A stretch of 64,000 bases of DNA. Origin: Phlyctochytrium arcticum (taxonomy: Eukaryota; Chytridiomycota; Chytridiomycetes; Chytridiales; Chytridiaceae). The stretch lies in contig JAHLKI010000005.1 in NCBI GenBank assembly GCA_025602905.1, forward strand, positions 1,178,001 through 1,242,000, written 5' to 3'. A program made the translations under genes and the position numbers. Positions 9,234 through 49,109 of this stretch are shown here, piece after piece. Every line of letters begins with the position of its first letter. The stretch's first letter is position 1. The notes under the pieces were generated by a model. It was given only the letters and a program-made list of their open reading frames with translations. It searched no databases and was not told the DNA's origin.

Positions 9234-9424
9234 TTATACAACAAAGACAGTCAGGCAATGGCCAAGAAACAGTCTCAAACGTGAGATTCCCTGCATGTGC
9301 GCCGGTTGTGACCGGGCGACTGCGTATGTTGCCTTGTATTCATCAGTGGTATAACATCTGTGTGCCAAAGAAATCGGCGCAGTCTTCACATAGCTTGCAA
9401 ATGCCCATACATGGCGACATGGTA
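9234..9424 (-). pseudogene. MULE3 transposase, C-terminal end of SWIM finger
   Basis: Reading leftward from the mariner, the frame is IPCRHVWAFASYVKT...CYTTDEYKATY. This is the CxH half of a SWIM zinc finger and the tail typical of Mutator-like transposases. The CxC half is on the other side of the mariner (10960-11090), and the frame is continuous across the TA target. The remaining codons to a stop near 9234 carry no further motif. Confidence 0.85.
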
Positions 9425-10959
9425 CTCCTCTGTGCGGGAAAGTTCTGTCCGTTCCACAAGATGTACCTGTAGAAACAATCCAAATGTCAAATGTGGTTCG
9501 AATTAAAATCTTGTGGTCTTGCCCTCGGCCTCCCACACAGAATTTATAGCTCTAGTCTGCCTATCGTAGAGATAATCTATGTAATCTACTGATAGTTTCG
9601 CCCATTCTTCTTGCAGGGCTTTGATGAGGCCGGCCTTCCCCGAAGGAAGGGGACGTCTCTCCCTAACTGCTTTCTCCAGAGTGTTCCAGCAGTGTTCTAT
9701 TGGGTTAAGATCTGGAGAAGTTGCAGGCCATTTGGGCTGCAGCAGCCGCATTTGCTGATCATTCTTCCATGCAGTAGTCGCCTTGCTGACATGGCAAGAA
9801 GCGTTATCCTCCTGCAAAAGGAAGCAACTGCGGTCGAATGGGGAAAAGTCTTTCAACCAGGTCTGATAAACAGAGAGGATGTTGTCGCAGTAATAGACGG
9901 AGTTGATTCTTGCTCCATCACAAATCACAAGTGGCCCAACTCCCCCATGCCAAATAAAGCTCCAAACCATGACCCCTCCACCGTTCTTTTGCACTCGTGG
10001 GATGCAATTTTGGATGGCGTATTTGTGGGTATCCCCCGGCTCACGCCAAATTTTCTTTGTTGCAGTGCCGAACAACGTAAAGAAGGACTCGTCCGAAAAA
10101 ATCACATGCTGCCAGTCTTCTTTGGCCCAATGACGCTTGTCCTGGGTCCATTGATGTCTGTAGGCAATGGACTTTTCAGACAACAACGGTTTCCTAGATG
10201 CAACGTACTTCTTCAAACCGGTCATTGTGATGAGGTTTCGAAGCATGTCCATGCTAAATTTCCTACCCATCATCTCCAAGATGAGCAGGATTTCTTTCAG
10301 AGGTGATCTGTTGTTCGTGACCATGACATGGTAGATTAGAGCAACATCATCATACGTCCATTCTTTCGGGCATCCGGATTTGGGTTTTTTGATCACCGAG
10401 CCCGTTTCCTTGTATTGCTTGAGAATGCGGGCGACCGTCCGCACACTGCAACCAAATTGTTCAGCAATGCGCTCGCTGCTTGCTTCAGCGAGCCACATTC
10501 CGACCATTTGGTTGCCGGTGTCCCGGTACAGTAGTTCTCAGAGTCCGGCTCTTCTTCCTTTGGCACTTTCCGCTTTCTATTGAACTCCACAACGTCATCC
10601 GTGTCATCGAATGGTTCTGCAGTCATCGAATCTGCAAGACTAATGGGGTCGCTGAACAAATCACCCAAATCACTCATGGTGCAGGTGAGGATCGCGCTCT
10701 AAAAGTATGTTTTTGTAGTGATGTTGGCAGCAAATGCGCGTCAAAAAGTACTGGACAATTCAAGATGGCAACAAGTAAAAAGTGAACGCGCGTTATACGG
10801 CCTATAGACGGCCTGACGCGATAAATGAACTACATTATACCTTAAGAGGCAATTATGAAACCGGAGGCAACCATGTGGATGGAACTTTGGCTTGATGGTT
10901 GAAATCAACCAAAAAATACACCTCTTGTGGAACGGACAGAACTTTCCCGCACAGAGGAG
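9425..10959 (-). mobile_element. Tc1/mariner-type transposon with TIRs and TA duplication
   Basis: Perfect 37-bp terminal inverted repeats (9425-9461 and 10923-10959, starting CTCCTCTGTGCGGG) are flanked by TA on both sides (9423-9424, 10960-10961). The element is 1535 bp with one transposase gene on the minus strand. It sits exactly between the two halves of the MULE3 SWIM zinc finger and shows no internal deletion, so it is one of the better preserved elements here. Confidence 0.95.
9503..10507 (-). CDS. Tc1/mariner transposase, DD36E
   Basis: Cut-and-paste transposase of 334 codons from the ATG at 10507. An N-terminal helix-turn-helix pair (residues about 5-60, ERIAEQFGCSVRTVARILK) is followed by a second HTH region. 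The catalytic domain has D in VIFSDESFF, D in LQEDNASCH and E in SPDLNPIEHCW. There are 36 residues between the second D and the E, two more than the 34 of classical Tc1; the extra pair is in LLQPKWPATSP. Upstream on the same strand an open frame from 10677 (MSDLGDLFSDP, acidic) overlaps in another phase. It could be the native N-terminus joined by a small frameshift, so the start at 10507 is a minimum. Otherwise the frame is intact. Confidence 0.9.
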   Translation of the reverse strand: MVGMWLAEASSERIAEQFGCSVRTVARILKQYKETGSVIKKPKSGCPKEWTYDDVALIYHVMVTNNRSPLKEILLILEMMGRKFSMDMLRNLITMTGLKKYVASRKPLLSEKSIAYRHQWTQDKRHWAKEDWQHVIFSDESFFTLFGTATKKIWREPGDTHKYAIQNCIPRVQKNGGGVMVWSFIWHGGVGPLVICDGARINSVYYCDNILSVYQTWLKDFSPFDRSCFLLQEDNASCHVSKATTAWKNDQQMRLLQPKWPATSPDLNPIEHCWNTLEKAVRERRPLPSGKAGLIKALQEEWAKLSVDYIDYLYDRQTRAINSVWEAEGKTTRF

Positions 10960-11090
10960 TATTAGCAAGTTCCGGTAATACTTACAACTACAAGTTCCAA
11001 CATGTTGCTCTACACACGGGAGCTGAACGACTTGCTGGCGGCGGCTACTAGCCATTATTACGACCCCGGAAGTGGATTCTGCCGGCGTGA
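10960..11090 (-). pseudogene. MULE3 transposase, CxC half of SWIM finger
   Basis: The minus-strand frame reads ASSRRQQVV, then HVGTCSCKYYRNLL, giving the first two cysteines of a SWIM zinc finger. It joins in frame to 9424 (IPCRHVW) across the mariner. Its upstream end joins in frame to 22550 (ELQAARGYQ) across the 11.4-kb element. Both joins restore a normal MULE C-terminal region, which is the best evidence that these pieces are one gene. Confidence 0.88.
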
Positions 11091-11112
11091 CCTGGTAGCC
11101 AGATTTTATAGG

Positions 11113-11153
11113 AGATAAGTATAGTATAATACCACGTGCGTATACGTATAGTC
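11113..11153 (+). repeat. Left TIR of the 11.4-kb transposon
   Basis: AGATAAGTATAGTAT, then ACGTGCGTATACGTATAGTC; 38 of 41 bases match the reverse complement of 22489-22529. The outermost 11 bp (11102-11112) are less conserved between the two ends. Confidence 0.88.
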
Positions 11154-11310
11154 AAAATATGGTTTGCTAAGTACAAACGTACGTGTTTTAGAGGTCAATT
11201 AGAAAAGAGGCACGTGATGTGGCTTGTCCCTCATGTTCATATACGCGCAACGATCTGTAAAAATAAAATCCTACCCACAATCGCGATTAGATCAGGGCTA
11301 CGAACGCAGT

Positions 11311-14300
11311 ATGGCCGACCCGCAAGACGGCATTGATCTCACTATTAGTGACGGTGAGGATGTAAGGGATAGTTCTACTTCATTTTTGTTGGAAAAGCTT
11401 GTGCTAAACTGTTTCGAAATGTGTAGGGACAACGCATCCGTGAACGTAACGATCAGCAAGACAACAATGATTTCAATGTCCGCCGGGTCCGCCGCGATGT
11501 TCAGGTAGGAGATGGTGCTACTTGAATGTTGGTTGGTAAAAATTTGTACTAAAAAGAAGCTGTTTCGAATATGGTATTATTAGTGATCATAACGATCCGG
11601 AAGACGAGAGTGACCTTACGGTGGGCGACGGTGTTGAGGTACGGGATGGCGCTGCTTACTCTTGGTCGCACAGCTTGCATTAAGCTTTTTGGAAATTGTA
11701 GGATCCGGCCACTGGTGATGATGATAATGAGGACGAAGAGCAGGAAGGTGCGCCAGACAGGGGACAGACCGCCAATAAGTGGGTAAACAAAGATACTAAC
11801 AATTTTGGAACAGCAGAGCTGGAAGTGAAGATCCAGATTTTTATGAGGACTTTTGTGGAGAAAGTCATCTACACTGCGGAACCGATGGAGTATCCCCCAA
11901 CGTCTGCAGAAGGGATTGCGGTCGTTTATGATGTATCTGCTTGGGACACGCCAGCTGCCGCTTTTCAGGATAATCAATACGCGTCCGGAAGGCCTGGAGG
12001 AGGACCCGTTGAGGTCAACTGCAAGTACCTTGGCTGCAAGGTCAATAGAGATGCAAATTGATGCGAGTCAGCCAGAAAATAAAATGAATTGTAGGTTAAG
12101 AAGGAAACCCGCACATGCCAAGGCATCAAATGTGTGAATATGTAGCCGACAACTTGCGTCAAATGACCCATTGCTCAGTCGACCCGAATGATCCCGTGTT
12201 CCAACCGTTGCTAGAACTAGGAGACTTGTTGCCATCTCCTGAGGAATCGATCAAGTTTCAAACCAAGGCGTGAGTCCTATTTGCTTCAATCCTGATTTCA
12301 TTTTTCATCATACTAAATCATGAATTTTTCTCGTTTTTAGTTCCTTCATCGCAGCAAAACAACGAGGTTGCCCTCATGATGACGGAAAATGTAAGGGCCT
12401 TCTTGTGCTGAAAAAGTTTAAGCAGGTACTGTACTATTGTGTGACTGGCAGGATCTTTTTTGATTTAACTTCTCAATCCATTACAACAGCAAGCACCTGC
12501 CTTTATCGTTGCTGGCTTATGGAGCAAATACTTTTATAGCTGCAGTGAGTGGGTCCACGGACAAACGCATACCTACGTCAAAGTCCCGGAGTCCCACGAC
12601 ATCGAATTTGTGAAGAGGCTGATTGCTCACGAAAGTCAACCCAGAGAGCGGCCCCCCCAAAATGCCCAGGCTCTAACACGCTGCAGTACGGTGCTACCCT
12701 GTTCGTCGAAACAGAAAGAATGCTGTGAGTGTGGCTGACAATTGTTTTTCATTCCTTTCCTAATGACATATTCTTTAAGTCGATTTTCACCGTCTGGACA
12801 ACGATGAGATCATGGCGGCAAAAGTGGTGCGCAAAGAGTTTTTGGTGACGTTCACAAAAATTACCCCTTTGGACCAGAAGGCGTTTCCGTTTGTGATCCT
12901 CCTCTCGCATGGTGTCCATACCCATCCCCCTCCCCCTCCTGTCAAGATCCCTACTGACATTCGCAGCCAATTACAAACATTTCTGGCTGGTACCAGCAGC
13001 AGTATACTCTCAGTGCGTGCCATCATTGGTGGACGCTACCTGCAGACGTGGTTTGGGTGAGCGTGCCATGTTTTCTTCTCTTCATTCTAGACGTTTCTCA
13101 TGGCTCATAATAGACGTTTACTGGAATCTATCGCGGCGGACATTCACTTGAGTTTCAATGACTTGTTGTCAGTGAGAAGGCTGACGGCGGCAGAGAGCCG
13201 CAGACGGGACCCCTTTGGGGAGTCAGTTTTGGGAGTCATGGCAGAAATGTTCACTCAGTATCAAAAAAGAGATGAAGAGGATACTCTGTATATCCGCAAA
13301 GCAGGTACGTCTCAACAAACTCGACTTGTCTCTGCAGGCACCGTTCTAATTCGGATATAGAATACACCCCGTCCAACAAGATGATCGTACTGTGCGCGCT
13401 GGAGCGCCAACTACTAGGTTTGAAGAAGGGAGGCGCGGTATTAATCGATATGACATTTAAAGGAATCCGAGGGGACTTCAATGAGTGGGAGATAGCCATG
13501 ATGGAGCGTGGCGTTGCTGGCAAGAACGCTATGGGTATGTGTTGCGCTCAAATTCCCGCTTGCAATCTGCCCACTAAACTTTATTCCTCATTCTAGTGAT
13601 GGCAGCCGTGCGAATTTACACAGATGGGAAAGACGCCGATGTTTATTGTCGCGTTTTTGAAATGGTTAATACCCTTTGCCGCGACGAGACTGGTCAGGGT
13701 CTGCGGTTTCGCCATGTCCACGGTAATGTGGACGGGTGCATAACCGTAGTCCTGTCTGATCTCGACCCCGGTCAGTACAAAGGTCTCGGGCTTTTTTTGG
13801 AGAAGATGACCGCGGATACGACCAAAATGACTTGGTCCGAGCATCTTCAGCATGTGCTAAAGTCGTGCAAAGTGCATTTTGACAGGTAAACATGTCGCTG
13901 CTATTTCCAATATGGCAATTCTAATTGTTCTCGATGTTACAAGAAATGTTAACAAGAATGCTCCTGGAGAGGCGAGGAAGGGATTGCGTGCCTTGATGAA
14001 GCAGATTGCAATTGCCGACCAACCCGCTACCTTAGGGGCTCTGTTCAAGCAGATAGTTGTGGTGAGAGAAATACCAGATGTCAGACTTTGGTTTATCGCA
14101 GGAATTCACACAATCACGCAGGTCGGTGCGCAACGCGGTCTCCAGTTAAAGGATTGGGTGTCCTTGTATCAACAACCCTACATTATTGCGTCCCTCTATC
14201 CAGCTTTCTCAAAAATTCCGCGAGATATATGGGCGATCACGATGTAAGTTGTGACAGCCGTTCCGTTCGTGAAAATCAAACTAATTGGAACAAAAGGACC

Positions 14301-14954
14301 GATACAAACCAGATTGAGGGCATGCACAAAGATCAAAACCGTAACTTTATGGCTGGCAGCCTACTGCACTGCATTTGAGAGCGTCAGATGTATGACCGGC
14401 GTCGCTGGTGCCAATCCGTGGTAGGAAAAACGAAGGGGGTGCGGTACAAGGCCATGAAAACCACCACCCAGACGGAGAAGAACAGGCAAGCCGCGGCTGC
14501 GAGGCGTGCGGCCAAGGCCGAAGGGGAAGGACCTGCTAAGGCTGGTGGTCCCGCGCCCGAGTCAATCCCCGCCGCCACAATTCCCAGTCGTCCTGGAGTC
14601 GCGTCAGGCAGTGGAACGGCCGCATTCCCCGCAGCGCCCGTGGTTGCCGATGCCCCCGTGTTTGCCGATGCCCCCGTGATTGCCGATGCCCCCGTATTTG
14701 CCGATGCCCCCGTGGTTGCCGATGCCCCCGTGCTTGCCGATGCCCCCGTGTTTGCGGATGCCCCCATTGCCCGCGTACCCGTCCCTGCGTCCCTGCCTGC
14801 GTCCGCAGTACCAGCAGCCACTACTCCCGCCGTGTCGGAATTAGATGAAATTGATATCGCCAATGCGGCCATTGCCGCCCGCTCCGCCAAGTTACGGGAA
14901 CAAATCAAGTTGCTTGAAGAGGAAACGGAACTGCACAAGAGTTGGAGGAGTTGA
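11311..14954 (+). pseudogene. DDE-type transposase gene of the 11.4-kb element (FNEWE family), slightly degraded
   Basis: Multi-exon gene with introns of about 45-80 nt; splice sites are visible, for example GTAAG at about 11362 and TTTTTAG before 12341. Conserved blocks in order: acidic N-terminus; CKYLGCK and following cysteines (zinc-like, about 12022-12130); FIAAKQRGCPHDDGKCKG (12345-12400); a C-rich segment before 12722; HGVHTHPPPPPVKIP (12910-12955); the core LIDMTFKGIRGDFNEWEIAM (13440-13500) with likely catalytic D and E; GNVDGC (about 13722); and DTNQIEGMHKDQNR (14305-14345), probably carrying the last acidic catalytic residue. The order and the F/K-x-I-x-G-x-F/x-N-E-W-E block match a distant MULE-like transposase group common in mushroom genomes (recalled family pattern). 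An in-frame TGA at 14376-14378, frame slips near 12130 and near 14940, and a hexapeptide repeat tail follow. Confidence 0.72.
14640..14765 (+). repeat. 18-bp minisatellite coding V-x-A-D-A-P
   Basis: Seven units of GTGGTTGCCGATGCCCCC or close variants encode repeats of VVADAP / VFADAP in the C-terminal tail of the transposase reading frame. The tail goes on to a helical segment (IKLLEEETEL). Only third positions and the second residue vary. Confidence 0.9.
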
Positions 14955-16474
14955 AAAAGTTGCGGGCCATGCAATTGGCAACCTCCACCATCTGAGACAC
15001 CTTGTTTGTATGCTTTTCATCTTTATCGTTTTCGTTTATCAAGGATCATTATCCCCCGTCCTCTGTCGAGACTCGAGATCACCCACAATTTGGGCTAACT
15101 TCAATTTTTTTTAGGCTACAATTCACGTCGACGTGTTCCCGCTGACACGCATTTTTTGTCTTTTCGTGTGCGCGTCCGTACCACGGTATTTCCTGACCAC
15201 GGGGTGCTGGACTTGATTGTTTCTGTGAACCTGGCAAGCAACCCCAAAGCAACCCGGCGTCGGGACAGTGCAGGCGGAATCAAGTTCAGTACTCCGAGGT
15301 TTTGAACTTCGTGACATTTTGATTATAGAATACAGGAGAATACAGTAGCTTTAGTTTTGTCAAAATTGATTGTTACCAAAATATAGGTTACTCGAGTACA
15401 TTACTTCTTCTTGACATGAAACTCCGTCTTATCGGCGGCATGCTGCCTACTGTACTTCGAATTACGCAACAAGGCAGCTTGTGTTTCCCCCAACTTTCAA
15501 AAAAAAAGGATCTTCGTACAATCTACATTGAAGCAGAAACGGATGACATTGTGCTTAGAAACAGAAATCGACAAACACGCATAGATAATGTATGGATTCG
15601 GGGGGGTCCCTAATGGGAGATTACTGCACTCGTCCGCGCTGTTGAGCCAACCATCTCCGATTCAGAACTGGCATGGAACAATGAGAGGTACACATGTCGG
15701 ATGCGTATGGTCGGAGAGCTTACATTCGGGACAACCTTGTCCGCAGCCACAGCAATGCTACATATAACAATGGGGATCAATGCAAAAAGATAATTTCGAG
15801 ACGTTCTCCAACTTTCTCACGACGGAATAATTCTTTCTTATTTTATTCCACGGTGCCAAGAAAGGTTTATCTTTAGGGTGTTAGTGTGATCGTATTTTCC
15901 GCAGACCCTTTTTCTAATGGAAGCTTTTTTTATGTGTAGAAGGGCCTTTTTGAGTCAAGTTTGAGCTTCCCCACCGACGCTGGCAGGGGGACGTTTGTCT
16001 TGATGACAATGAAAAGGCAAGCGAACATATTTTACAGCGATATCTGCCCCATAACCTTTGCCAAGGGAAGATTTCTCTATTTGTGAGGATTTTTTTGAGT
16101 CAAGTCTGCTTTTCCCCTCCGACGCTAGGCCAGCGCGCCGGGTGAAAATTTTGAACCTCCTATTGAGGCACAAATATATTCACCTGTATTTGTATCGTTC
16201 TCCGGGAGCATAGAGTAACGTTTTATGGAGCTTTTTTTTTCTGAACTGCGATGTTCTTTTGTATGGTTTCAAGTTGTTTATTGGTGTTCGGCAAACGGCG
16301 TCAGCGTTAGGCACTCGGAGACACTCCCGGAGACACTTTGATACAGAGAGCCAGTGCCCAGTGGCACAGTTTTTTTGTTGCGTGGGTGATCCATCTCAAA
16401 TTGCTTCAGAAGAAATAGCTGGCCCTGGACTGTATACTGACTCGTGGTCCATTATCCTGTCAACATTTGATTCA
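14955..16474. other. Intergenic DNA inside the 11.4-kb transposon
   Basis: No supported gene. It holds two of four dispersed copies of a GC-rich motif: near 15968 (CCACCGACGCTGGCAGG) and near 16117 (CCTCCGACGCTAGGCCAGCG). The other two lie at about 18760 and 18931. The last 200 bp precede gene A and may hold its promoter; an open frame extends upstream of the chosen ATG to 16259. Confidence 0.5.
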
Positions 16475-18072
16475 ATGAGTTCGCGAGAAAGCAGACTACA
16501 AGGGCGTATTGCAAAACATCAGAGCGAGGATTGCTTTGTGCTTTTGAGCACAGAAAAAAAAACTTTACAGGAGGAGGTCGAGGTAAATCATCAGAAGGTT
16601 AATTTGTTGCACTTTGATTCATATCACCGCTTTTCTGGCAGAGGCTAACAGTCTACGTGCAAGAGCTAGAGGATAAGCTGGAGGTTCAGGAGCACCAGTT
16701 TTTCGAAAGAGTTTCGGAAATAAAGGATGCATTGACTAAGGTAAGGTGTTTGATCACTATGTGCCATTGGATAGCATCTGACAAGATTCGAAAAGGAAAT
16801 TGAACGTCTAGCACTGAGTAACGAAAAATTGAATAATGAAGTGGTTGCGTTGGAGCATTCGGAGATGGACCTGTCCATCCATGTGGAGCGCCTTGAAAAG
16901 GAACTGAAGGAGTGGGAAGAGAGGGATCTGAGGGAGGGCAGCATGAATGATCAAGTTGAAGGATTCGCGAACGAGGGCAGGAGTAGTGTTACAACGGAGG
17001 AGAATGATGAGGAAGGGAAGGAGGGTAACGAGGAAAATAATGTGGTTGAGGGGGAGGAGGAGGAGGAGAGTGCGGTTTCCTCGGAGATGGATGAGGATGA
17101 TCATGGCGCACAATCTGAGCCAAGTAAAGTAGGCCAGGTGGACAAAGGGCTTCGAAGACAAAGTCAACGGAAACGCCAAGTAATTTGTTGAGAAAGCAAA
17201 GATTTTGATTGTCCGCAAGAAATTGAGGTTGTGAATGTTAAGGAATTTACTGCTCTCGTGAATGATTATTTGGTATGACCTGAATGAAACTACACGCAAA
17301 ATCATTTTACGCTAACTTTGCTGTTTTCTAGACCCATGAGCCATTTCAAATACACCCGAACGCAGTAAAACACAACCGAACGATATTGAATGCGATTAAA
17401 AAGGCAATGCCGGACGTGGATGTCAGCATGTTAAAGACGCTTGCCCAGGGAGTAAGCTCTGCCTTTTTCGCTGAGAAGGCAGCAAATGCTGCGTTCTTGA
17501 CCCTTCTCCAGCATGTTTTTGCAGCCGCAAGCGCCGCGATTTCCTTCCGGCAATTGGCCACGCTTTGTCACGATAAATACCTTGCGGGTAGGAGACGCAA
17601 ACTTGGGAAACAAGTGGGACCCACGCATATTGCATCGTTAATGTTCCAACGAGGTTTCAAGTCAGTGGTTTTCAAGAAAATGAAGGAAGCTAATTACGCA
17701 GCATGCACGGCTTTTGACAAAAGCAACGTTCATCACGAAAAGAACTTTTCCAAATGTGTCGGCGTTGGGCAGTTCATCATCGATTTGGTAGATACGGTTG
17801 GTCCAGGGGTGGCCTTCCGGTTCCTGAGGGAAAGCAACCTCTCATACTCGTCTCTACAAACAATGACGACTGGACAGGCCAGCAATCATTATCTGGCTGG
17901 TTTGCAAAAGGATCCATCCCGCCAAAGATGCAGTGAGGTGTATTCGTCTGCGGATGCAGCGGAGGCCACGGAGAAAGCATGGACGGAGCTGGGGTTCAAA
18001 CAGCTGCACTCTATGTCTTTTTCTGACGTTGTTGCGAGATTTGGAGCTACAGCTATGAAAAATTGGACTTGA
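16475..18072 (+). pseudogene. Coiled-coil gene A of the 11.4-kb element, one in-frame stop
   Basis: Not a family I recognise. Exons fit at 16475-16582, 16642-16740, about 16775-17272 and about 17331-18072, with GT-AG introns. The N-terminal third is heptad-rich coiled coil (VYVQELEDKLEVQE, RLALSNEKLNNEVV, VERLEKELKEWEE), followed by a strongly acidic run (EEEEESAV) and a basic patch. The C-terminal 240 residues form a conserved globular-looking domain: LAQGVSSAFFAEKAANAAFLTLL, FRQLA, GVGQFIIDLVDTVGPGVAFRFLR, SLQTMTTGQA. Gene B at 20467-22173 has the same exon layout and domain. In-frame TGA at 17189-17191 with homology resuming in the same frame suggests recent inactivation by a point change, unless it is read through. 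Confidence 0.65.
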
Positions 18073-19419
18073 CGATATCATTCTTACAATACAAGACAAC
18101 AATGTAAAAAAACTCAATTAGCGGCCGCTGATGACGTATTTAATCATTTGCTCTCTTAGTCTGTTCCACTTTTATTATGTATTCTTCTCCTGTTATGTTT
18201 ATCCGTTTCGTCTTTGCCTATGATATATTGATATGATACTCTTTTGATCAACCAACAGAGTTCCCGCAAATAGAAAAGTTTCCAATATAGCTTCAATTGA
18301 AGGTCATCTTTCAGACTCTCACTTGCCATGACAAGTTCCAACTTAAGGATCACATATTGCATAAAATCTACGAAGTAATCTTTCACCTATTGTTTTTGAT
18401 ACTATGCGCGATGGACACTTCGTCTGGTGAACTATCACAGGCAGGTTTTTTAAGCAATGCAATAGCGTTGACATCCGAAAAGATTACCATTAAATCTTCC
18501 TCAGATATCCTTCTTCCCAGAAATAGTACAAATGGTACAATTTTCGAAGAAATTGTTGTGAAGGTTTTGTTTTATTTTGAATGGCCAAAAGAAACCACGG
18601 GGAAATTTGAGAAGGTCTCTATATACTTCTTTCGAAAACACAACACTAATTAAAGGACTAGTTACTGTAGCGTCGGAGTAGAAGTGCTCAGTAATTCTTC
18701 ATGCAATTGAGAAAATAGTTTGAACAGTTTGGGGACTATTCCCTCTCATATGGGCATCCCCTCCGGCGCTGGGCCAGCGCGCGGGGGGAAAGTTGAGAAA
18801 GTCTATACTTTTTTCGAAAACACAGGATTAATTAAACTACCAAGTTAGCGTCGGAGTAAAAGTGCTCAGTGATGCTTCATACAGTGGAGAACTCATTCCA
18901 TACAGGTTGGATGATTTTATTAGGGCATTCCCTCCGATGTTGGCCAGCGCGCCAGTAAATCCTCTATCCACTTTCTCTGACCTACAAAATGATTATTTTG
19001 AGATAACAGCGTTCAAGAGCAAGTCCTCACTGATTTTAGAGTGGAAAAAATGTTTTTTGCTGGTTACGGCATCCCCTCCACAAAGTCCCAAAATTAAATT
19101 GGAGCAACAAAATGAAATAATTTGAAGTTCAAGGGCAAGTCCTCAGTTATTGCTTGCCGACTTGACTACAGAATTTTATTTTACTTTGTGATGTTTTTAA
19201 GCCTAGCTAACGCATTATTATGTCTGAAAGCCAAAAAGTTGTTTCCTTTCAAGCTTGAAATATGTAATTCAACTGCGTCCAGATTTTGGGAAGTTAACAG
19301 GCAATGTGCGCAAGAGATGAAAAAAATTAGAGATACAGTTTCTTTTACTCTTGGGTGGGGCCGATTGAACATCTATCGGTGTGGTGTTTAAATTTCGTTG
19401 AGACAGCTGAGTAGAAAGT
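18073..19419. other. Spacer with a 184-bp tandem duplication
   Basis: No gene supported. From about 18609 and again from about 18793 the same order occurs: TTGAGAA-GTCTATAC, CGAAAACACA, ATTAA, AGCGTCGGAGTA-AAGTGCTCAGT, then a GC-rich CCTCCG...CTGG-CCAGCGCG motif. The open frames at 18297-18653 and 18862-19125 run through these repeats and show no domain. Confidence 0.5.
18609..18976 (+). repeat. Two-copy tandem repeat, about 184 bp per unit
   Basis: Copy 1 is about 18609-18792 and copy 2 about 18793-18976. The clearest shared blocks are GCGTCGGAGTA-AAGTGCTC and GGCCAGCGCG. The second block also occurs at about 16117-16140 and, shortened, at about 15968. Confidence 0.6.
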
Positions 19420-19665
19420 TGCGATGCAAAGTACTATACTGAGGATCGCATCCTTCTTTTAAGCACTGAAAAAGAATCTTTAGAAGCGGAGGCGCATGTA
19501 GCTCAATGGGTAATTGAGGTTCAAGACACACTTTCGTGGCGTTTTAGGTTCAGAGAAAGTGTTGCAAAGCTGAGAACGCAAAGAGTCCCACACTAATGGT
19601 TACATGCCAAGTTTGAACGAACCAGTCAAGTCGATACGAGACGTCAATTACCAAGACCGCTATCC
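19420..19665 (+). pseudogene. Remnant of a third coiled-coil gene copy
   Basis: GAGGATCGCATCCTTCTTTT, then AGCACTGAAAAAGAATC, parallels the end of exon 1 in gene B (20695-20754) and in gene A (16525-16582). The following intron and exon 2 region can also be followed in degraded form (TTCAGAGAAAGTGTTGCA...GATACGAGACGTCAATT, compare 20821-20905). No conserved C-terminal domain follows. Confidence 0.65.
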
Positions 19666-20192
19666 CACTTCCTTCGTTTCACACTGACATCTTATCTTCT
19701 CTTGCCACTTCCGCTTAATCTAGAATCCGCTCCTTTATCAACCCGGCTACTTGTGGAATATGTTTATGTGCAAAAATATCTTGCGCAAGAATCTATCAGA
19801 CAACTATTCAAGGACACCGGTATTTATCAAAGCAAGTTTTACAACCTTCGACGAAGTTGTTGGAAATGGACGGCTGGATGGACAGTCTTCTGAACAAAGG
19901 TAACTGAAAGGCATGTATTAAGAAGGAGGGGCGGGGGATGTCCTCTTTTATAGAGTCGACAAACTCCCCCAAATCACCCATACAAATGTATAGGACATAA
20001 AGAAAAGAACATGCGCTGCTAGCGTTCAAAGCTGTGCAAAGGGAATACACATGAAATATGGGTAAAGGAAAGAAAGATAGAAGATAATGTACAAATGTTG
20101 GCATAAATGGGTCAGGGATTTCGTTGTCGTGGATCCCAATGAAAGGAACGAAGCAACGAAGCTGAAGCTACTATGTAGAGTTCCAACAGAAG

Positions 20193-20273
20193 TGTAGAGT
20201 GGTTGAGTGGATCACTACCGAGCGTGTAGCGGCGGGGTCTAGGTTCGAAACCCGCCCCGATGGGGCTTTTTTT
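20193..20273 (+). ncRNA. tRNA-like RNA polymerase III unit
   Basis: An A-box TGGTTGAGTGG (20200-20210) and a B-box GGTTCGAAACC (20242-20252) stand 42 bp apart and are followed by T7 (20267-20273). The B-box is framed by a GGCGGG/CCCGCC stem. An acceptor stem cannot be formed from the flanks, so this is not a normal tRNA gene. It may be a tRNA-derived unit or a SINE head. It lies about 200 bp before gene B. Confidence 0.4.
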
Positions 20274-20466
20274 ACCCTTCAAAAGTTTTATCTTTCCTAC
20301 GTCGATACATATATTTTTTCTTATGCAAGAAAGAACAATAGAATGTTCAACTTAAGTGCTAAAACTATAGAAAACGAACACTCTTATCAAACAGTTCCTA
20401 TATGTGAAAGCCAAAAACACATTTGTTTCTAATTGCATCCCTCTCTGTTGACAAATTATTTGTAGT

Positions 20467-22173
20467 TTGCGATATTCAATGAAAAATGTAAGGTACGTAC
20501 ACAAGGGATTAAAAAAAAAAGTAGCAATACGGTTTTTTTTTATGGTGGCGTGGGGCTCATTCGGCACCCTGTCGCTGCATTCTAAAATTTCTCGAGCCCC
20601 CCGTAGATATTTCCCACAAAATCAGTCTGGAAAGACTCGAAATGACTTTGCGAAATACTGTAATAGAGTAAAAAATTGCAAAGCAAAGTACCATGCTGAG
20701 GATCGCATCCTTCTCTTGAGCGCTGAAAAAGAGTCTTTACAAGCGGAGGTGAAGGTAAGTTGCTAGAAAAGACTTCAATGGGTGGTTGATTGAGACTCAA
20801 CGCATACTTTCTTGACGGCAGAGGTTAACAGAAAGAGTTGCAGATCTCGACACTCAGAACACTGGTTTAGAGGAAACGGTCCAATCGATAACAGACGTAA
20901 GTTGCCAAGCTCGTGCCGGCCGGCAGTAGTTGATGTGAGTTCCTAGAAATTTGAGAACGAAATATTGATGATGAGAAGGGAGAACAAGAGACTGAAATCA
21001 GAAGGGGTCGCGTTGAAGCGTCTTGAATTAGAGTCAGCTGCGAAAGTTACGCAGCTGGAGGAACAACTCAAGGCGCGGGAAATGCGGGATATTGTACATC
21101 TGGACGGAAAACGCGGAAGGGAAGAGGCGGCCGTTGAGGAAGAGGACGATAGGGAAGAAGAGGAAGAGGAACAAGAGGGAGAGGGGGAGGGGGAGATGTT
21201 CGATGAGGAGAAAGAGGACAATGCCAATGGAGTTGGCAAGCTGGCCAGACGCGTAGCCAAGACCAAATCGCGAGGCCCATCAGTTGGCAATAAGTTGACG
21301 AGAAGTTACATGCGTCTTGAAGACATTGAAGTCGTGAATACAGATGAATCTACAGTTCTTGTCAATGACTACATCGTAAGTTCAGAGTGATGCTACTACA
21401 AGATGTTTCTCGTTAACTTTCGTATTGGCCAGACTCATAAACCACATAGAGCGAAATCAAGCAATATAGCATCAAACCGGGCCATATACAAAGCAATCAA
21501 AAACTCTATCCCGAGTCTGGATCCCCAGGAGCTATCAACTCTCGTCCAAGGAGTAGGCTCGGCGTTCATGGCGGAAGATGCTGCCAATGCTGCCTTCTTG
21601 ACGTTGCTTCAACAAATTTTCGCTGCCGCCAGTGCAGCCATCTCCTTCAGGCAGTTGGCAGTGAAATGCCGAGACCAATACGTTTCCAATAGGCAACGCA
21701 AACTGGGAAGACGGGCTGGATCACCAATATTGGCGAGGCTTGTGGAACAACCAGGGTTCAAGGCCGTTGTTTTCAAGAAAATAAAAACCGCCAATGAGGC
21801 TGTTTGTGGCGCCCTTGCCAGAAACAACAGGTTCTATGACAATAACTTTCACAAATGTGTCAGTGTTGGACAGTTTGTCATCGACTTGGTGGATATAATC
21901 GGCCCAGGAGTGGCATTCAGATTTTTGAGAGATACCAACCTCTCATACTCTACCCTTCAAACGATGACCACTGGACAAGCAAGAGACAGCTATCTGGCCG
22001 AATTGCGAAGCGATCCATACCGCCAAACATGCAAAGAGGTATATTCATCTGCGCGGGCGGCGCAGGCAACGGAAAAGGCCTGGAAAGATTTAGGATTCAA
22101 ACAGCTGCATGGTATGTCTTTCTGCGAAGCTGTTGCTAGACTTGGAGCTACTGCCTTGAAAGAGCTCGAGTAA
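20467..22173 (+). CDS. Coiled-coil gene B of the 11.4-kb element, frame intact
   Basis: Function unknown. Exons: up to 20754 (start uncertain; the open frame begins at 20467 with a non-ATG codon and has no obvious ATG homologous to gene A), 20822-20896, 20947-21375 and 21433-22173, all with GT-AG introns in phase. The N-terminus is coiled coil (LSAEKESLQAEVK; ADLDTQNTGLEETVQ; MMRRENKRLKSEG; VTQLEEQLKARE), then a long Glu-rich run, a basic patch and the 246-residue C-terminal domain. That domain is about two thirds identical by eye to gene A (LVQGVGSAFMAEDAANAAFL; CVSVGQFVIDLVDIIGPGVAF; LQTMTTGQAR). No catalytic signature, signal peptide or membrane segment is seen. A structural or DNA/protein-binding accessory role in transposition is inference only. 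Confidence 0.7.
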
Positions 22174-22488
22174 CGATAAATGTACATTTGGAAGTACATT
22201 CAACAATCAAATGTTGTCGGCTAATGTTTGCAATAGTTTTTTTCCAGCTAATGCCTTGTCCAGCGTTAAGATGCTTCGTAGTTCTGCAATGATAACTCTC
22301 GTGGCCTCCAGGTACCGAACAAACAACAGTGGGCACTCGGACTGAGTCTGGCAGAGAGTTGTTGGTCCTGCTGTTCGTCTGGTCAAGTCTTGAAATGCTG
22401 GTGCGTTTTGCTGCGTATAGATGGCGTGGTGCGTATTTTGGGCAGATGCGTATACTGTGACCGATGTGGCGCAGTTCCGTAATGTGGC

Positions 22489-22529
22489 GACTATACGTAT
22501 ACGCACGTGGCACCATACTATACTTATCT
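22489..22529 (-). repeat. Right TIR of the 11.4-kb transposon
   Basis: Partner of 11113-11153, with three mismatches (the stretch AATACC versus GGTGCC). It is followed by 9 less conserved bases and the 11-bp duplication at 22539-22549. Confidence 0.88.
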
Positions 22530-22549
22530 GCGACGTACCCTGGTAGCCA

Positions 22550-22871
22550 CGAGCTGCCTGCAACTCCCTTTCAAATCTGGCGAGGGGTTGTGGGGGCAGC
22601 GGTGTTTCCAGTATTTCGGCGGCTGCTTTCCTTTCGAAAAACTTTTCCATCTGATGCCGATACATAGTATCAAGCATCTCATGAAGGGGCAACTCCCGGG
22701 CTATTCGAAGTGATGAATTTGCGATCTCGGCTAGGTTTGAAGTGCAGTGCCCGAATCCTCAGGCTTCCATGGCGTAAGTTGCCCACTGATTGTGGCAAAT
22801 GGCTAACACATATTCGGCTGCTCTCTCGTTCAGTTCCTTGAGTTCTGCAATCCGCTCATCAAAGGCAGTTC
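22550..22871 (-). pseudogene. MULE3 transposase, region of the third catalytic residue
   Basis: The minus-strand frame reads AFDERIAELKELNERAAEYVL, then HNQWATYAMEA, an in-frame TGA (22759-22761), then GFGHCTSNLAEIANS and ELPLHEMLDTMYRHQMEKFFER, ending ELQAARGYQ. This is the C-terminal part of a Mutator-type DDE domain; SNLAEIANS probably holds the catalytic Glu. It continues upstream across gypsy1 at 62320 and downstream across the 11.4-kb element at 11090. Confidence 0.85.
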
Positions 22872-23098
22872 GTGTAGCGTTTTCGGTTAGGAGTTGGTAT
22901 GGACGGTAATGCACCTTCCCAGGGTGCGAGAGTCGGGGTAGTGTTATTAGCTTTAGCGCAGAGGAAGAGAAAAAGCGTGAAGAGTAAAATGTACAGTGCA
23001 AGGGAATGATATACAGAAGAAAACAAGAAATATACACGTGACGATGCGCCTTAGCGCAGTCGTGCGGTCAATGCTCATCAAACCACGAGCCTGCCGCA
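22872..23098 (-). repeat. gypsy1 3' LTR (L1)
   Basis: 227 bp, TG...CA on both strands, preceded on the element strand by a purine tract (CTGAGGGGGG). It differs from the LTR at 53156-53381 by about six substitutions and one base indel. Confidence 0.9.
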
Positions 23099-37793: not shown

Positions 37794-40286
37794 CAGCCAA
37801 GAACAACAAGGCACCAGTAATGTAGAGACAGATAGTTTGCAATCATATGGTAAGCGTCCTCGTGCAAATCAATCCGAGAGTCATCTGTATAAAAATGCCA
37901 TGCAGCTTGGACTCCACCACCTCTTCCAACCGAAACATTTGAAACGTGGGAAAAAGCGGATCACGTGCTCAAACAATTTGCCTTGGACAATGGGTTCGCA
38001 TTCAGAAATGGAAGCTCAGAGAGAATCGCTGGTCCTAGTACTCCGATTCGCAAGATCTGGCGACCTTGTGTTTGTTACGGTAACTACATTCCGAAAGACG
38101 ATGGTATCCCACTGCGCAACAGGGGCAGCAAGAAAACTGGTTGCCAATACAAGGCCGTCAGCAAGGCAGAAGTTGAGGATGGGAATATTGGTCGTTGGAG
38201 CGTACGCCTCGCGCAATCATCGGACGCAGGAACCCACACAGGCCATCGGCAGCTTTCGAACAATGGCCTGCGGTCTGTATTCCAGGCGCGAAGATTATTT
38301 ACCCAGTCTCAACACGTCTTGGCTGAGGTGCAGAGCATGGTTAAAGCCAAAACAAAGCCTCGCCAAGTGCTAGCAACCATTAGGGGGCATGCGGAAAACC
38401 CACTTGTGATCAGCAAAGATATCACAAATCTCACTCAAAAAAATACGCGCAACGTGCTCGCTGGCCGCTCCCCTTTGATGGCTCTATTGGATGAACTTTA
38501 AAATGAAGTCAACAGCGGCGTTGCTACCGATGTGATCCGAAATGAGGAGAACGTCATGACCCATCTGTTCTTTCAGACCGATGTAAGTGGCATCAGCCGT
38601 GCTTCAAACTACAGTATCTATCCTTGACGGACTTGTCCTTCCACAACTTAGGAAAAAATGGTCGAAGTACTTAGGAGATTCGGGGACGTCCTAATCATGG
38701 ACTGTACATACCGAACGAACCGTCACAACATGCCTCTGCTCCACGTAGTCGGAATCACGGACATATCATCTTCTTTCTCGGGTGCATTCATGTTAATGGC
38801 AAACGAGAAGACAGAAGACTATATCCTTGCTTTGCGAAGATTGACTGTCTTGCTGGACCGCCCACCTGCTTTGGTAGTCATTGACTGCGATACTGCGTTC
38901 ATTGCAGCAGTGAGAGCCGCGTGGCCAGCAACCAAAATTATTCTTTGCCGATGGCATCTCTGGCAAAATGTGAAGAAAAATTGCATGAAGAGATTTGTCG
39001 ATCCAGTAACAAAGAAGCACGACGCCGCCGCATGGCACGTTCTTAAATCGTACGTTGCTGACAGGAAAATTGAAATATCTCAAAGTACTCAAAAAAAAAT
39101 TGTGCTTGTAGGGCTTGGGAACAAATTCAGCATGCACCTACAGAGGAAATGTTTTGTCAACTATGGGAAGATTTGAAAAATCTCGTCGATTCAGACACTT
39201 ATAAGTATCTGCAAAAGAATAAGATCCCTCTTCGGCAGCACTGGGCCGCATACCTGATAGACAAATACCCTAACCCGCATACCTGATAGACAAGTTGCAA
39301 CATTTGGATGCGGTTGTAACTTCAAGAGTCGAGGGGGAGCATTGGAGCAACGTTAAATCGAATGGTTCGGCGAAGTCAACCATTCTTACTTTATGGACAA
39401 CCATTAAGGACAATTGCGCTCAGCAAATGGAAAACTATCAGACCGCGGTGGAGGAGGGCGCCAATACCTTACATCGATTTTTAACAGCAGGACCCGTTGT
39501 GAACGCACGAGTCGTTAACAACAAACCATTCCAACCTGGGGTCCAAGTGAAACCCTTCTACCGAGATGTAGTTGGGCGGCTCTCGCGGCACATCCTTCAG
39601 GGCAGCGGATCAAGGCAGACAGGATTGCCAAATCCAATGGTCCGGGGGGAACGGACTCAGTGCTTTGCGACAATTCACCTGCTTTGGAGCCCTGTAGCGG
39701 GCGTCATAGGACAGTGCTGGGTATTCCTTGTGCCCATGAAATTCTAGAGATGCGCCGCACAAACTGCAATTTGCAAATGTCCGACTTCCTTCAAAGATGG
39801 CATTCAAGGGTCACCCCTCCTTCCTGATTTGAGATCAGTGAGCCCCCGGTCGGTCGCTTTGTCAGTGTAGGCCATACTCGTGGCAACAAGCGATTGAACA
39901 CCGGTGCCGAACATATTGAAGCGGAGATGCGCGCTGCGCAGCAGCAGTGTGGCCATTGCCAAGAACACGGCCATCATCAGGGGGAATGTCCAACAGCAAT
40001 TCTTGAGTCCATGGCACAAGAAATTTTCGATCATGAATTTGACCCAGATGTGGATTACTTTGCCAATCAGGTCATCCCCAGTCAGAGCACCTCCACCGCA
40101 GGTCAAGATGAATTACAACCGGTCAGTACTCAAACCAGGACTCAAACTGCCCTCCCCCAGGTGACGCCCACTGCACAACCAGAAGACAATAGTCAACAAC
40201 AGACCCCAAAAAGAGCTCGTGCCCCACCTCGATGCTCACGTTGCTCATCCCTTGCCCACACATTCCTAAAATGTCCTCTCAAATAA
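37794..40286 (+). pseudogene. MULE1 transposase with SWIM finger and two CCHC zinc knuckles
   Basis: After the hAT: a FAR1-like/N-terminal domain (LKQFALDNGFAFRNG, IWRPCVCYGNYIPKD, KKTGCQYKAV); a helical linker; TAA at 38499-38501; an intron at about 38585-38651; the DDE core (VLIMDCTYRTNRHNMPLLHV, ALVVIDCDTAFIAA, KIILCRWHLWQNVKKNC); VEGEHWSNVKSNG holding the third acidic residue; a SWIM finger (LGIPCAHEILEM); and then retrovirus-like knuckles CGHCQEHGHHQGEC and CSRCSSLAHTFLKC. Several frame changes break it. MULE2 is its close relative in the opposite orientation. Confidence 0.87.
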
Positions 40287-46315: not shown

Positions 46316-49109
46316 TCTTCACTGCGCAGCTCTTGTAATTGTGGCCAGACGACCCACAACGGGAACATCGCGGTGTGGCCCGAATTTTGCGCGGTGGCTC
46401 TGAGCTGCTTCCTGCGGTGGGCGTGTTGGATTCGGAAATACAGTATCGTCGAACATTGACTGGGCGGCTTGCGATGCCACTTCAACAGATGGGCATTGAG
46501 TCCTGTTATGTCCGCGCGCCTGGCAAACCCCACAATGCTGTTGGCATGCTTGCAGTTCGCTTTCCGCGCGCTCTGCTGATGTGCGCCGCCTTTTGTTCCC
46601 ACGCTCGTGGGTGACCTTGCTGAATCGACCAACTGGAGGTTCTAGTACCTCCGTGGATTTTGTGACCGGTTGCAAGTGCCACCTTTGGATAAAGTCGGAC
46701 ATTTTCAATGCACGATCGTCCTTCCGCATGGCAAGGATTTTGTGGGCACACGGCACGCCCATTACTGTCCTATGCCACGAAGTGCATGGCTTCAAGACCA
46801 GCGAGCCTTCACTCAATATTGTGGCAGTATCATTGGCTTTGGTGATCCTGTCCGCCTTAATTCGTTCGTTGTCAACCATGGTTAGTAGGTGAAGTGGAAG
46901 GCGTTGGTTAATTTTTGCGTAGAAAGGTCGGATTGTTACGGGAGTTCGAAACCTTTTTTGAGCTTCAGGTTGAATATCATCACAGCTCAGGAAACGGTGG
47001 ATGGTGCTTGCGTCCGATCCCACAGCCGCCCGATAATTGGCCATTTGTTGGGCGCAATTTCGGCTTATAGTACGATAGTGGGTGAAGATGGTGGAGTTGG
47101 CAGAACCATTGGACTTGATCGATGCCCAGTGCTTGCCTTCCACCCTAGACGTCACGGTGGCGCTCAAATGCTGGTATTTGTCAATGTATGCACTCGCCCA
47201 GTGTCGTCTTAGAGGGATTTGGTTCTTCTCCAGGTAGTTATAGGTATCCTTGTCGACATCTTTTTCCATTTGCTCCCAAAGTTCTAAAAACTTTTCCTCA
47301 GTGGGTGCCCGTTCCAAGTCCATCCATATCCTGTATAAAAAAGTCTTAGCAATGCGAAAGACGACCTAGGTTTGAAGAAGGAACATACATTTTGAAAGCT
47401 GACCACGCTAGCGCATCATACTTCTCATCATCATCAACAAAGTTTTTTTGACAGTTTTTTTTGATGTTTTGCCATAGATGCCATCTGCAAAGAATGATTA
47501 TAGTGTTGGGCCATTTGCCCTTCACCGCTGCAATAAATGCCGCGTCAGAATCAATGACCACTATGCCTGGCGCTTTTGGTAGGGACACTGAGAGGCGGTC
47601 CAGGGCAAGCTCATAGTCTTCTGTGGTTTCGTTTGCCATTAACATAAATGCACCTGAGAAAGAATGGGCAGTGTTGGTGATTCCAACAACATGGAGTAGG
47701 GGCATCTTGTGATGGTTTGTGCGATAAGTACAATCCATGATTAAAACATTGCCGAACTTGGTGAGTAGCTCCGCCATATACTGCTATATATCGTGCGCGT
47801 TTTAACAAAGGATCACAAAGGTTTGGGTCATCGGAACTGACATCGGTCTGGAAGAACAAGTGCGTGAGGACCTTCTGTTCATTTTGAATGACATCTGTGA
47901 CGACTCCTTGGTCTACAGATTGGGCCAGGTCGTCCAGTAAAGATGTCAGAGGGGAACGGCCTTTCAACAGATCTTCCAAATTTTTCGATTTTTGGTTTGT
48001 GATCTCCTTGATCGTCACCAAAGGCTGGGAGGTAAGACGTTTGATAGTAGCTAGGATCTCCCGAGGTTTAGAGCCAGCCTCGATCATGTTGTTGATCTCA
48101 CGAGCGACGCCGGCACTCTGAGTAAATCGACGTGCCTGGAAATAAGGCATCAAGCCCTCCTTTGTCAGCTGTGGATGACCAGAATGGGTGCCTTTTCCGG
48201 CCCCGTCCGACAGCTTGATGGTCCATTCTCCCACCACACCTTTCGCAACAGTACCCTTCAGGATAGCCATATATTTACAGCCTACTTTCTTGCTTCCTCT
48301 CTTGAGCAACGGGATACCTTCATCCTTCGGCTTGTATTGTCCGCCACATGCACAGGGGCGCCAGATCTTGTGGACCGGAGTTCCTCGCCCGGCAACACGC
48401 TCCTCTCTCAGGTTGGAAATGGCGAATCCATTTTCCGTTGCAAACTGCTTTAACGCACGGTCAGCTTCTGCAGATGTAGCAAAGGGACCGGAAGGGGGAA
48501 GAGGCGGGGTCCATGCTGCGCAAAGAAATTATTCAGCTATCAAACATTTTCCACCTTTGGGTAATCATACCATCGGAGACTGTAGCATCGTCAGGGGCGT
48601 TTGACTCTGATTGATCTTGCAATTGAGTGACATCTTCAGCATCGGTTGCGGTGTCATCCTTATTGCTCACATCACGTTCAACCCAACAATGGTTTCTAAA
48701 GATGATAATGAGCATTGGATTTTTTTATCAATTGAACAATAGAGAGGAATACTTTACCTTCAAGCTGAACTTGACCACTACTCTGTGTATAGGTCGAGTC
48801 GTTGTGAGTCTCGTCGGTCGCGTTCAATCTAATACTGATTTCTGCTAAGAATATATAATGCGTATGAGATTTTCCATGATTCATCATTTGCTTCAAGGGT
48901 GTAGAATTACCCTCAGACAAATTGGGAGCCCTATGACCCACAGGCTGTACTGCCCGCAACGCTGTTTGCATGAGAGTTGGAGTAACCGGGGTTAATGCCA
49001 TCACGTCTGCCATCTTTTGTGATAGCTTTCTGCTGGCTTCATTATGCTCCTCTACTAATGCACGCATGGCATTATAGACATCCTCAGACTGGGTGCCGTT
49101 GGAGGACAT
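46316..49109 (-). pseudogene. MULE2 transposase with SWIM finger and CCHC zinc knuckles
   Basis: ATG at 49109. Exon 1 (DVYNAMRALVEEHNEASRKL) is followed by introns near 48895, 48700 and 48520. A FAR1-like segment follows (WTPPLPPSG, LKQFATENGFAISN, IWRPCACGGQYKPKD), then KKVGCKYMAILKG, a linker, and the DDE core (VLIMDCTYRTNHHKMPLLHV, IVVIDSDAAFIAA, IIILCRWHLWQNIKKNC). An intron lies near 47330-47395. Next are VEGKHWASIKSNG (third acidic residue), a SWIM finger (MGVPCAHKILAM) and knuckles CGVCQARGHNRTQC and CSRCGSSGHNYKSC. A frame slip near 46385 precedes the last knuckle. It is the best-preserved MULE gene in the window and the model for MULE1 and MULE5. Confidence 0.85.

Follow-up and report, generated by a model that had tools for sequence, protein, structure and literature searches.

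Two-gene Mutator-like elements (MULEs) are already known, and how the second genes help them is an open question for which few examples have been described (PMC6446971). The best comparisons are MuDR of maize (mudrA and mudrB), where the biochemistry of mudrB is unknown and the gene is apparently required for integration (PMC6446971); VANDAL21 (Hiun) of Arabidopsis, where short motifs, found chiefly in non-coding sequence of the element, evolve together with the element-encoded protein VANC (PMC5735166); and Mutyl of Yarrowia, whose second gene, mutB, is said to have a DNA-binding role (PMC6446971). Here we describe an 11,439-bp element of the aquatic fungus Phlyctochytrium arcticum (Chytridiomycota) that contains a transposase gene and two copies (B1 and B2) of a second gene, named gene B. 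It lies in the window, the stretch of 64,000 nucleotides that was analysed (contig C5, positions 1178001-1242000, of a 31.5-Mb assembly with 91 contigs). Linkage of gene B to the transposase and selection on its C-terminal domain were observed, and with a probability of roughly 0.55 the element is a two-gene transposon of the Mutator type in which gene B encodes an accessory factor that acts through near-palindromic repeats.

Like MuDR, this probable Mutator-type element has a transposase gene, a second gene and a 9-bp target-site duplication (TSD). However, host, ends and second protein differ, the likeness is one of description, and element-restricted repeats, which the P. arcticum element has, form no part of the description of MuDR in the source sections used. 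With VANDAL21 it shares an element-encoded second protein and motifs confined to its own elements. VANDALs are without terminal inverted repeats (TIRs; PMC6446971), whereas the P. arcticum element has them, and its motif is a near-palindrome in two to three copies instead of a dense array. VANC and gene B are likewise compared by description: binding and demethylation by VANC were demonstrated experimentally, whereas gene B is known here from sequence alone. Mutyl is also fungal, Mutator-like and equipped with a second gene, and its TSD of 9-10 bp is similar (PMC6446971). It differs in its ascomycete host and in its 22-bp TIRs, as against the 41-bp TIRs of the chytrid element, and MutB and gene B are again likened by description.

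Gene B follows the transposase gene in divergent elements

Searching the assembly with the gene B exon gave 12 matches, including both copies, C2:1392209, C4:1326392, a fragment on C49 and weaker ones. In a second element (C2:1387082-1392967) a transposase gene, three repeats and gene B are arranged in the same order as in the window. The same order, in degraded form, was found at C4:1323153-1326682, where a transposase remnant precedes two palindromes and gene B in truncated form. The transposases of the window and the second element are 45% identical, and the short C4 remnant (C4:1323153-1323557) shows 44% identity to P0007, a related transposase, and 38% to that of the window. The ends of the second element (within C2:1384001-1398000) and of a relative at C3:1290 kb were not found.

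A divergent gene-B-like subfamily is present at C2:42213-42797 (L020), C2:669849-670436 (L021), C37:157721 and C17:44388; two of its members are 90% identical over ~950 bp of DNA and are flanked by sequence rich in repeats. In the examined flanks of L020, L021 and L024, no transposase of the group to which the window's transposase belongs was recognised. The original prediction had considered that gene B might be an ordinary host gene. Its closer homologues with enough flanking sequence follow a transposase of the group, but the C49 fragment, C2:42213 and C2:669849 show none within ~1.5 kb.

The gene B domain is under purifying selection: the ratio of nonsynonymous to synonymous divergence (dN/dS) is 0.20 between B1 and B2 (dS 1.47), 0.21 between B1 and the second element (dS 0.89) and 0.19 between B2 and the second element (dS 1.53). 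Because dS is 1.47 and 1.53 in the comparisons with B2 as against 0.89, the duplication into B1 and B2 probably predates the split of B1 from gene B of the second element. That gene B is a captured passenger without any role in transposition is improbable. Mutator-like elements do capture host sequence (PMC6446971), and gene B is absent from most relatives of the transposase; however, no host source gene was recognised by searches of the assembly and nr, dN/dS is ~0.2 across elements, and gene B is found again, with a common repeat, in divergent elements. The label "passenger" used in the original prediction is too weak for the same reasons, namely the recurrence in divergent elements, the dN/dS of ~0.2 and the repeat that accompanies gene B. 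Since gene B follows the transposase in divergent elements and is under purifying selection, it would be an accessory gene of the element and not a chance passenger, and it probably serves the transposon itself.

The degree of similarity also bears on whether gene B and the repeats were passed between transposons as a mobile or exchangeable cassette of their own. Between the two elements gene B is 70% identical at the amino acid level in exon 4 and 79% at the DNA level, as compared with 45% amino acid identity of the transposases. Two gene-B-free relatives were followed downstream: one loses homology to the gene-B element at the first repeat, and in the other (C3:505 kb) homology ends within ~40 bp of it, so that in 2/2 comparisons the border lies at or near this repeat. 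However, the C3:505 kb relative retains a degenerate palindrome, split by ~350 bp, and the border can therefore be explained by a deletion beyond this palindrome. Moreover, no cassette ends or duplications were identified, and a slower evolution of gene B would equally account for the gap in identity. We regard exchange as a cassette as highly doubtful.

A near-palindromic repeat confined to gene-B elements

The repeat at 16091-16140 (plus strand), detected by alignment and genome scans, consists of TTTTTTGAGTCAAGTCTGC followed by a near-palindrome around CGCTNGGCCAGCGC and is 49/50 identical in the second element, whereas 20 shuffles reach 27-30/50. A degenerate copy, recognised by similarity, lies upstream at 15947-15981 (plus strand), and the genome scans placed a further near-palindrome at 18757-18781 (plus strand), between B1 and a remnant resembling gene B exon 1. 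Across the whole assembly, all seven repeat sites with at most three mismatches lie in gene-B elements (7/7; reversed control 0), as do the exact repeat core (4/4; control 1) and the other repeat half (5/5; control 0). All sites fall in the window copy, in the second genomic copy of the same element (the C2 copy, described below) or in the second element; the C4 locus has two weaker versions. Because the repeats co-occur exclusively with gene-B elements, the gene B protein may bind them.

Their position permits another explanation. The repeats stand 0.2-0.9 kb upstream of the gene B start at three loci, the usual place of promoter elements, and in the window also before the exon remnant. They contain TGAGTCA, which we take to be a bZIP (Gcn4/AP-1) site. 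They could thus serve only as the gene B promoter and be recognised by a host factor, while gene B acts like mudrB together with the transposase or at the ends of the element; the conservation of its domain (dN/dS ~0.2) agrees with such a helper. For a host-factor promoter it is unusual, however, that neither repeat half occurs elsewhere in the assembly, a result that has to be read with the fact that a long pattern would miss short sites. We consider this explanation rather unlikely.

Limits of the element and a second genomic copy

The existence of the element is confirmed and its boundaries are known exactly (11102-22540, plus strand): homology to the C2 copy begins and ends there. The C2 copy (C2:1279929-1315262) has flanks unlike those of the window copy and its own 9-bp TSD GTTGTTGCT. 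The two copies align in five blocks of 95-98% identity, covering window 11102-14582 and 14696-22540; the gap between blocks corresponds to a variable minisatellite. In an end-pair scan (starts 10900-11300, ends 22300-22800, at most one mismatch in the 9-bp flanking repeat) the best score, 5.81, went to 11102/22540, and the runner-up had 2.84. The TSD TGGTAGCCA occupies 11093-11101 on the left and 22541-22549 on the right, according to the comparison with the C2 copy, the end-pair scan and the joined flanks.

A direct repeat of 11 bp had been proposed here. The repeat exists, and its length is 9 bp, because the second copy fixes the ends of the element; the extra CC belongs to the right end of the element itself and matches the flank by chance. 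The proposed 41-bp TIRs were found again, with 38/41 identical positions (93%), by TIR comparison and the end-pair scan. They lie 11 bp inside the ends, at 11113-11153 (plus strand) and 22489-22529 (minus strand), and the outermost 11 bp of the element agree at 4 positions. It had further been claimed that removal of the element restores an interrupted reading frame. When the flanks were joined, the neighbouring minus-strand frame indeed stayed open over the junction. A stop already interrupts the same frame farther upstream, and the assembly, in which only the two halves were matched, yielded no intact version of the insertion site; the open frame is therefore weak support. The only other copy recovered by the genome search for the same TIRs does contain the coiled-coil genes, and the existence of the predicted DNA transposon is supported by this copy together with the two further loci of identical gene order. 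On C21 a sequence resembles the left end of the element; the 10 kb examined there matched neither the transposase nor gene B.

The C2 copy is interrupted by three insertions of 4.0, 7.0 and 12.95 kb. The 4.0-kb insertion has an 8-bp duplication, and the 7.0-kb insertion carries two repeats of ~244 bp each that resemble long terminal repeats. The right flank of the window copy (22873-23040) is 82-83% like these 244-bp repeats.

The transposase

The transposase gene with the FNEWE motif announced by the original prediction is present inside the element (12133-14953, plus strand). Nine exons were modelled, and earlier exons from ~11311 lie outside the model. The window gene has an in-frame stop at 14376 and, relative to C2, a 1-bp deletion at 12128. 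In the C2 copy the 4.0-kb insertion breaks the gene, and exons contain 5-bp insertions. Besides FNEWE, the exons encode LIDMTFKGIRGDFNEWE, VVLSDLDPGQYKGL and TNQIEGMHK. Read by eye, the order LIDMTF, LSDLDPG, NQIEGMH makes a D, D, E arrangement plausible, and on these motifs a Mutator-like fold of the RNase H-like DDE type and catalysis may be proposed. TIRs, which are missing in some MULEs, are present, and the 9-bp TSD of both copies falls inside the MULE range of 8-11 bp (PMC6446971).

The related transposases P0006 and P0007 carry N-terminal tandem (I/V)(I/V)D(L/V)(D/E) motifs, which presumably resemble SUMO-interacting motifs; at the corresponding place the window (~11311-11360) reads GIDLTISDGED. 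The last transposase exon contains an in-frame minisatellite with an 18-bp unit (14583-14695). Its repeat number differs between the copies, since this segment is absent from the C2 alignment. Proteins that resemble transposases and contain an NEWE motif occur in mushroom-forming fungi.

Architecture and decay of gene B

Both gene B copies and the exon-1-like remnant that had been predicted are present in the window. The exon model of B1 (16475-18072, plus strand) has four exons (16475-16582, 16642-16740, 16775-17272 and 17332-18072). That of B2 (20542-22173, plus strand) has supported exons at 20822-20896, 20947-21375 and 21433-22173, and the remnant, identified by its similarity to exon 1, lies at 19409-19500 (plus strand). 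The gene B product has the parts named in the original prediction. The heptad score of the N-terminal coiled coil was reached by 0, 1, 3 and 38 of 500 shuffles in four sequences, the acidic run has a net charge of -18 over 55 residues, and the C-terminal domain, which is probably helical, has 246 residues and a net charge of +14.

No undamaged copy was present among those examined. The original prediction does not mention the stop and the deletion in the window transposase or the stop in B1. B1 has an in-frame stop at 17189 in the window, and different frame damage as well as the 7.0-kb insertion in the C2 copy. The first exon of B2 (to 20754) is disturbed in the window by a 5-bp insertion at 20656, and in the C2 copy, too, B2 has a disturbed 5' end. 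Gene B of the second element has a stop near its end, and that of C4 is truncated. Between the window and C2 copies, dN/dS values from small counts were 0.26 for B2 exon 4, 0.70 for B1 exon 4, 0.61 for B1 exon 3, 0.79 for B2 exon 3 and 0.69 for the transposase; values of 0.61-0.79 match those that decay would give.

Nine 5-bp differences between the window and C2 copies have the form TA to TAC(A/T)GTA. Seven are in C2 (matching window 13005, 13282, 14226, 16177, 17855, 18182 and 20462) and two in the window (18663 and 20656). For two of these differences the aligner had placed gaps of 1+1+3, which were joined by eye; the list had no further 5-bp gap. A footprint of the TAC(A/T)G type is left by Sleeping Beauty, which belongs to the Tc1/mariner elements (PMC3432063). 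Both copies were thus probably damaged in part by Tc1/mariner-type excision, and heavy cut-and-paste traffic may have contributed to their decay. A Tc1-like element adjoins the left side of the element (9423-10961); it has inverted repeats of ~40 bp (9423-9464 and 10920-10961) and an open reading frame (9503-10507) that matches Pfam DDE_3. The footprints do not evidently come from it, because its ends read TACTCC..., as against TACWG in the footprints.

Between the exon remnant and B2, a tRNA-like stretch with a GGTTCGAA box (~20200-20275) is perhaps a short interspersed nuclear element; it was reported by neither ARAGORN nor Rfam.

Relatives outside the host

Searches of nr and metagenomes revealed no gene B relatives outside P. 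arcticum. The B2 domain is identical to DFS34DRAFT_692289 of P. arcticum in nr. A single gene B query matched four proteins among 4248 candidates and a transposase query three among 902, all from P. arcticum. A gene B alignment query matched six P. arcticum proteins, one of which is the window's own, among the 7996 candidates sharing most words that were scored. Because these searches require shared 5-residue words, distant relatives may escape them. In viral contigs a pattern matched five stretches, none of which (0/5) encodes a relative. Sequence searches of the PDB with the gene B domain as a single sequence and with the transposase profile gave no match; seven matches of the gene B profile at E 0.16-1.7 were taken as chance. 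Against Pfam, gene B had matches below cut-off only. The profile search and structure prediction suggested for gene B were both carried out, the former reaching chance level and the latter yielding a model too poor for use. No paper describing the element was found by title and start of abstract among open-licence PMC papers.

Pfam MULE domain matches number at least 151 in the assembly, two of them inside the window (38688-38969, plus strand, and 47466-47747, minus strand), and by impression the P. arcticum genome is unusually Mutator-rich for a fungus.

Discussion

Several observations weigh against a Mutator-type transposon with gene B as its accessory factor. A genome search showed gene B adjoining the transposase exon at only 3/26 places, so most relatives do not need it. 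In a transposase family with eight places, the one copy followed has no gene B downstream and instead an open reading frame read as ABC-transporter-like. Given the 3/26 places and the gene-B-free relatives, gene B is an optional part of this transposase group. The seven repeat sites represent three element copies, two of which are one element, and the ~1.7 kb upstream of B2 contain no repeat belonging to that copy. B1 and the second element share 77-84% identity in their introns, which are less divergent than dS implies, so dS may overstate the divergence. The transposase did not match Pfam MULE (PF10551), nor any other Pfam family at E<=1 in three forms or at E<=10 in three members, and hhalign gave a probability of 0.3% against the two MULE domains of the window. 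The structure models of gene B (mean pLDDT, the predicted local distance difference test, 40.1) and of the transposase (30.6) were too low for use.

On the reading that we prefer, the element would be a cut-and-paste transposon of the Mutator type with two genes, here in a decayed copy. Its transposase would act on the ends, its catalysis being predicted, and leave the 9-bp duplications that were observed. The gene B protein, with its coiled coil, acidic linker and basic C-terminal domain, would most likely bind the near-palindromic repeats. Binding might then raise expression of the element or aid transposition, as VANC or mudrB do in plant Mutator elements; this is the least certain step. 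By the same analogy gene B could have a role in silencing or in escape from it. More tentatively, the system may represent a VANC-like self-recognition that arose in an early-diverging fungus independently of plants, in which a transposon-borne, sequence-specific factor from a protein family unrecognised outside P. arcticum acts on its own near-palindromic target for self-activation or anti-silencing.

The protein family of gene B, for which no relatives were recognised, and the repeat that is confined to gene-B elements constitute a testable pair. If this reading is true, cut-and-paste transposons would have acquired self-recognising accessory factors on more than one occasion, and such factors may be present in fungal elements as well.

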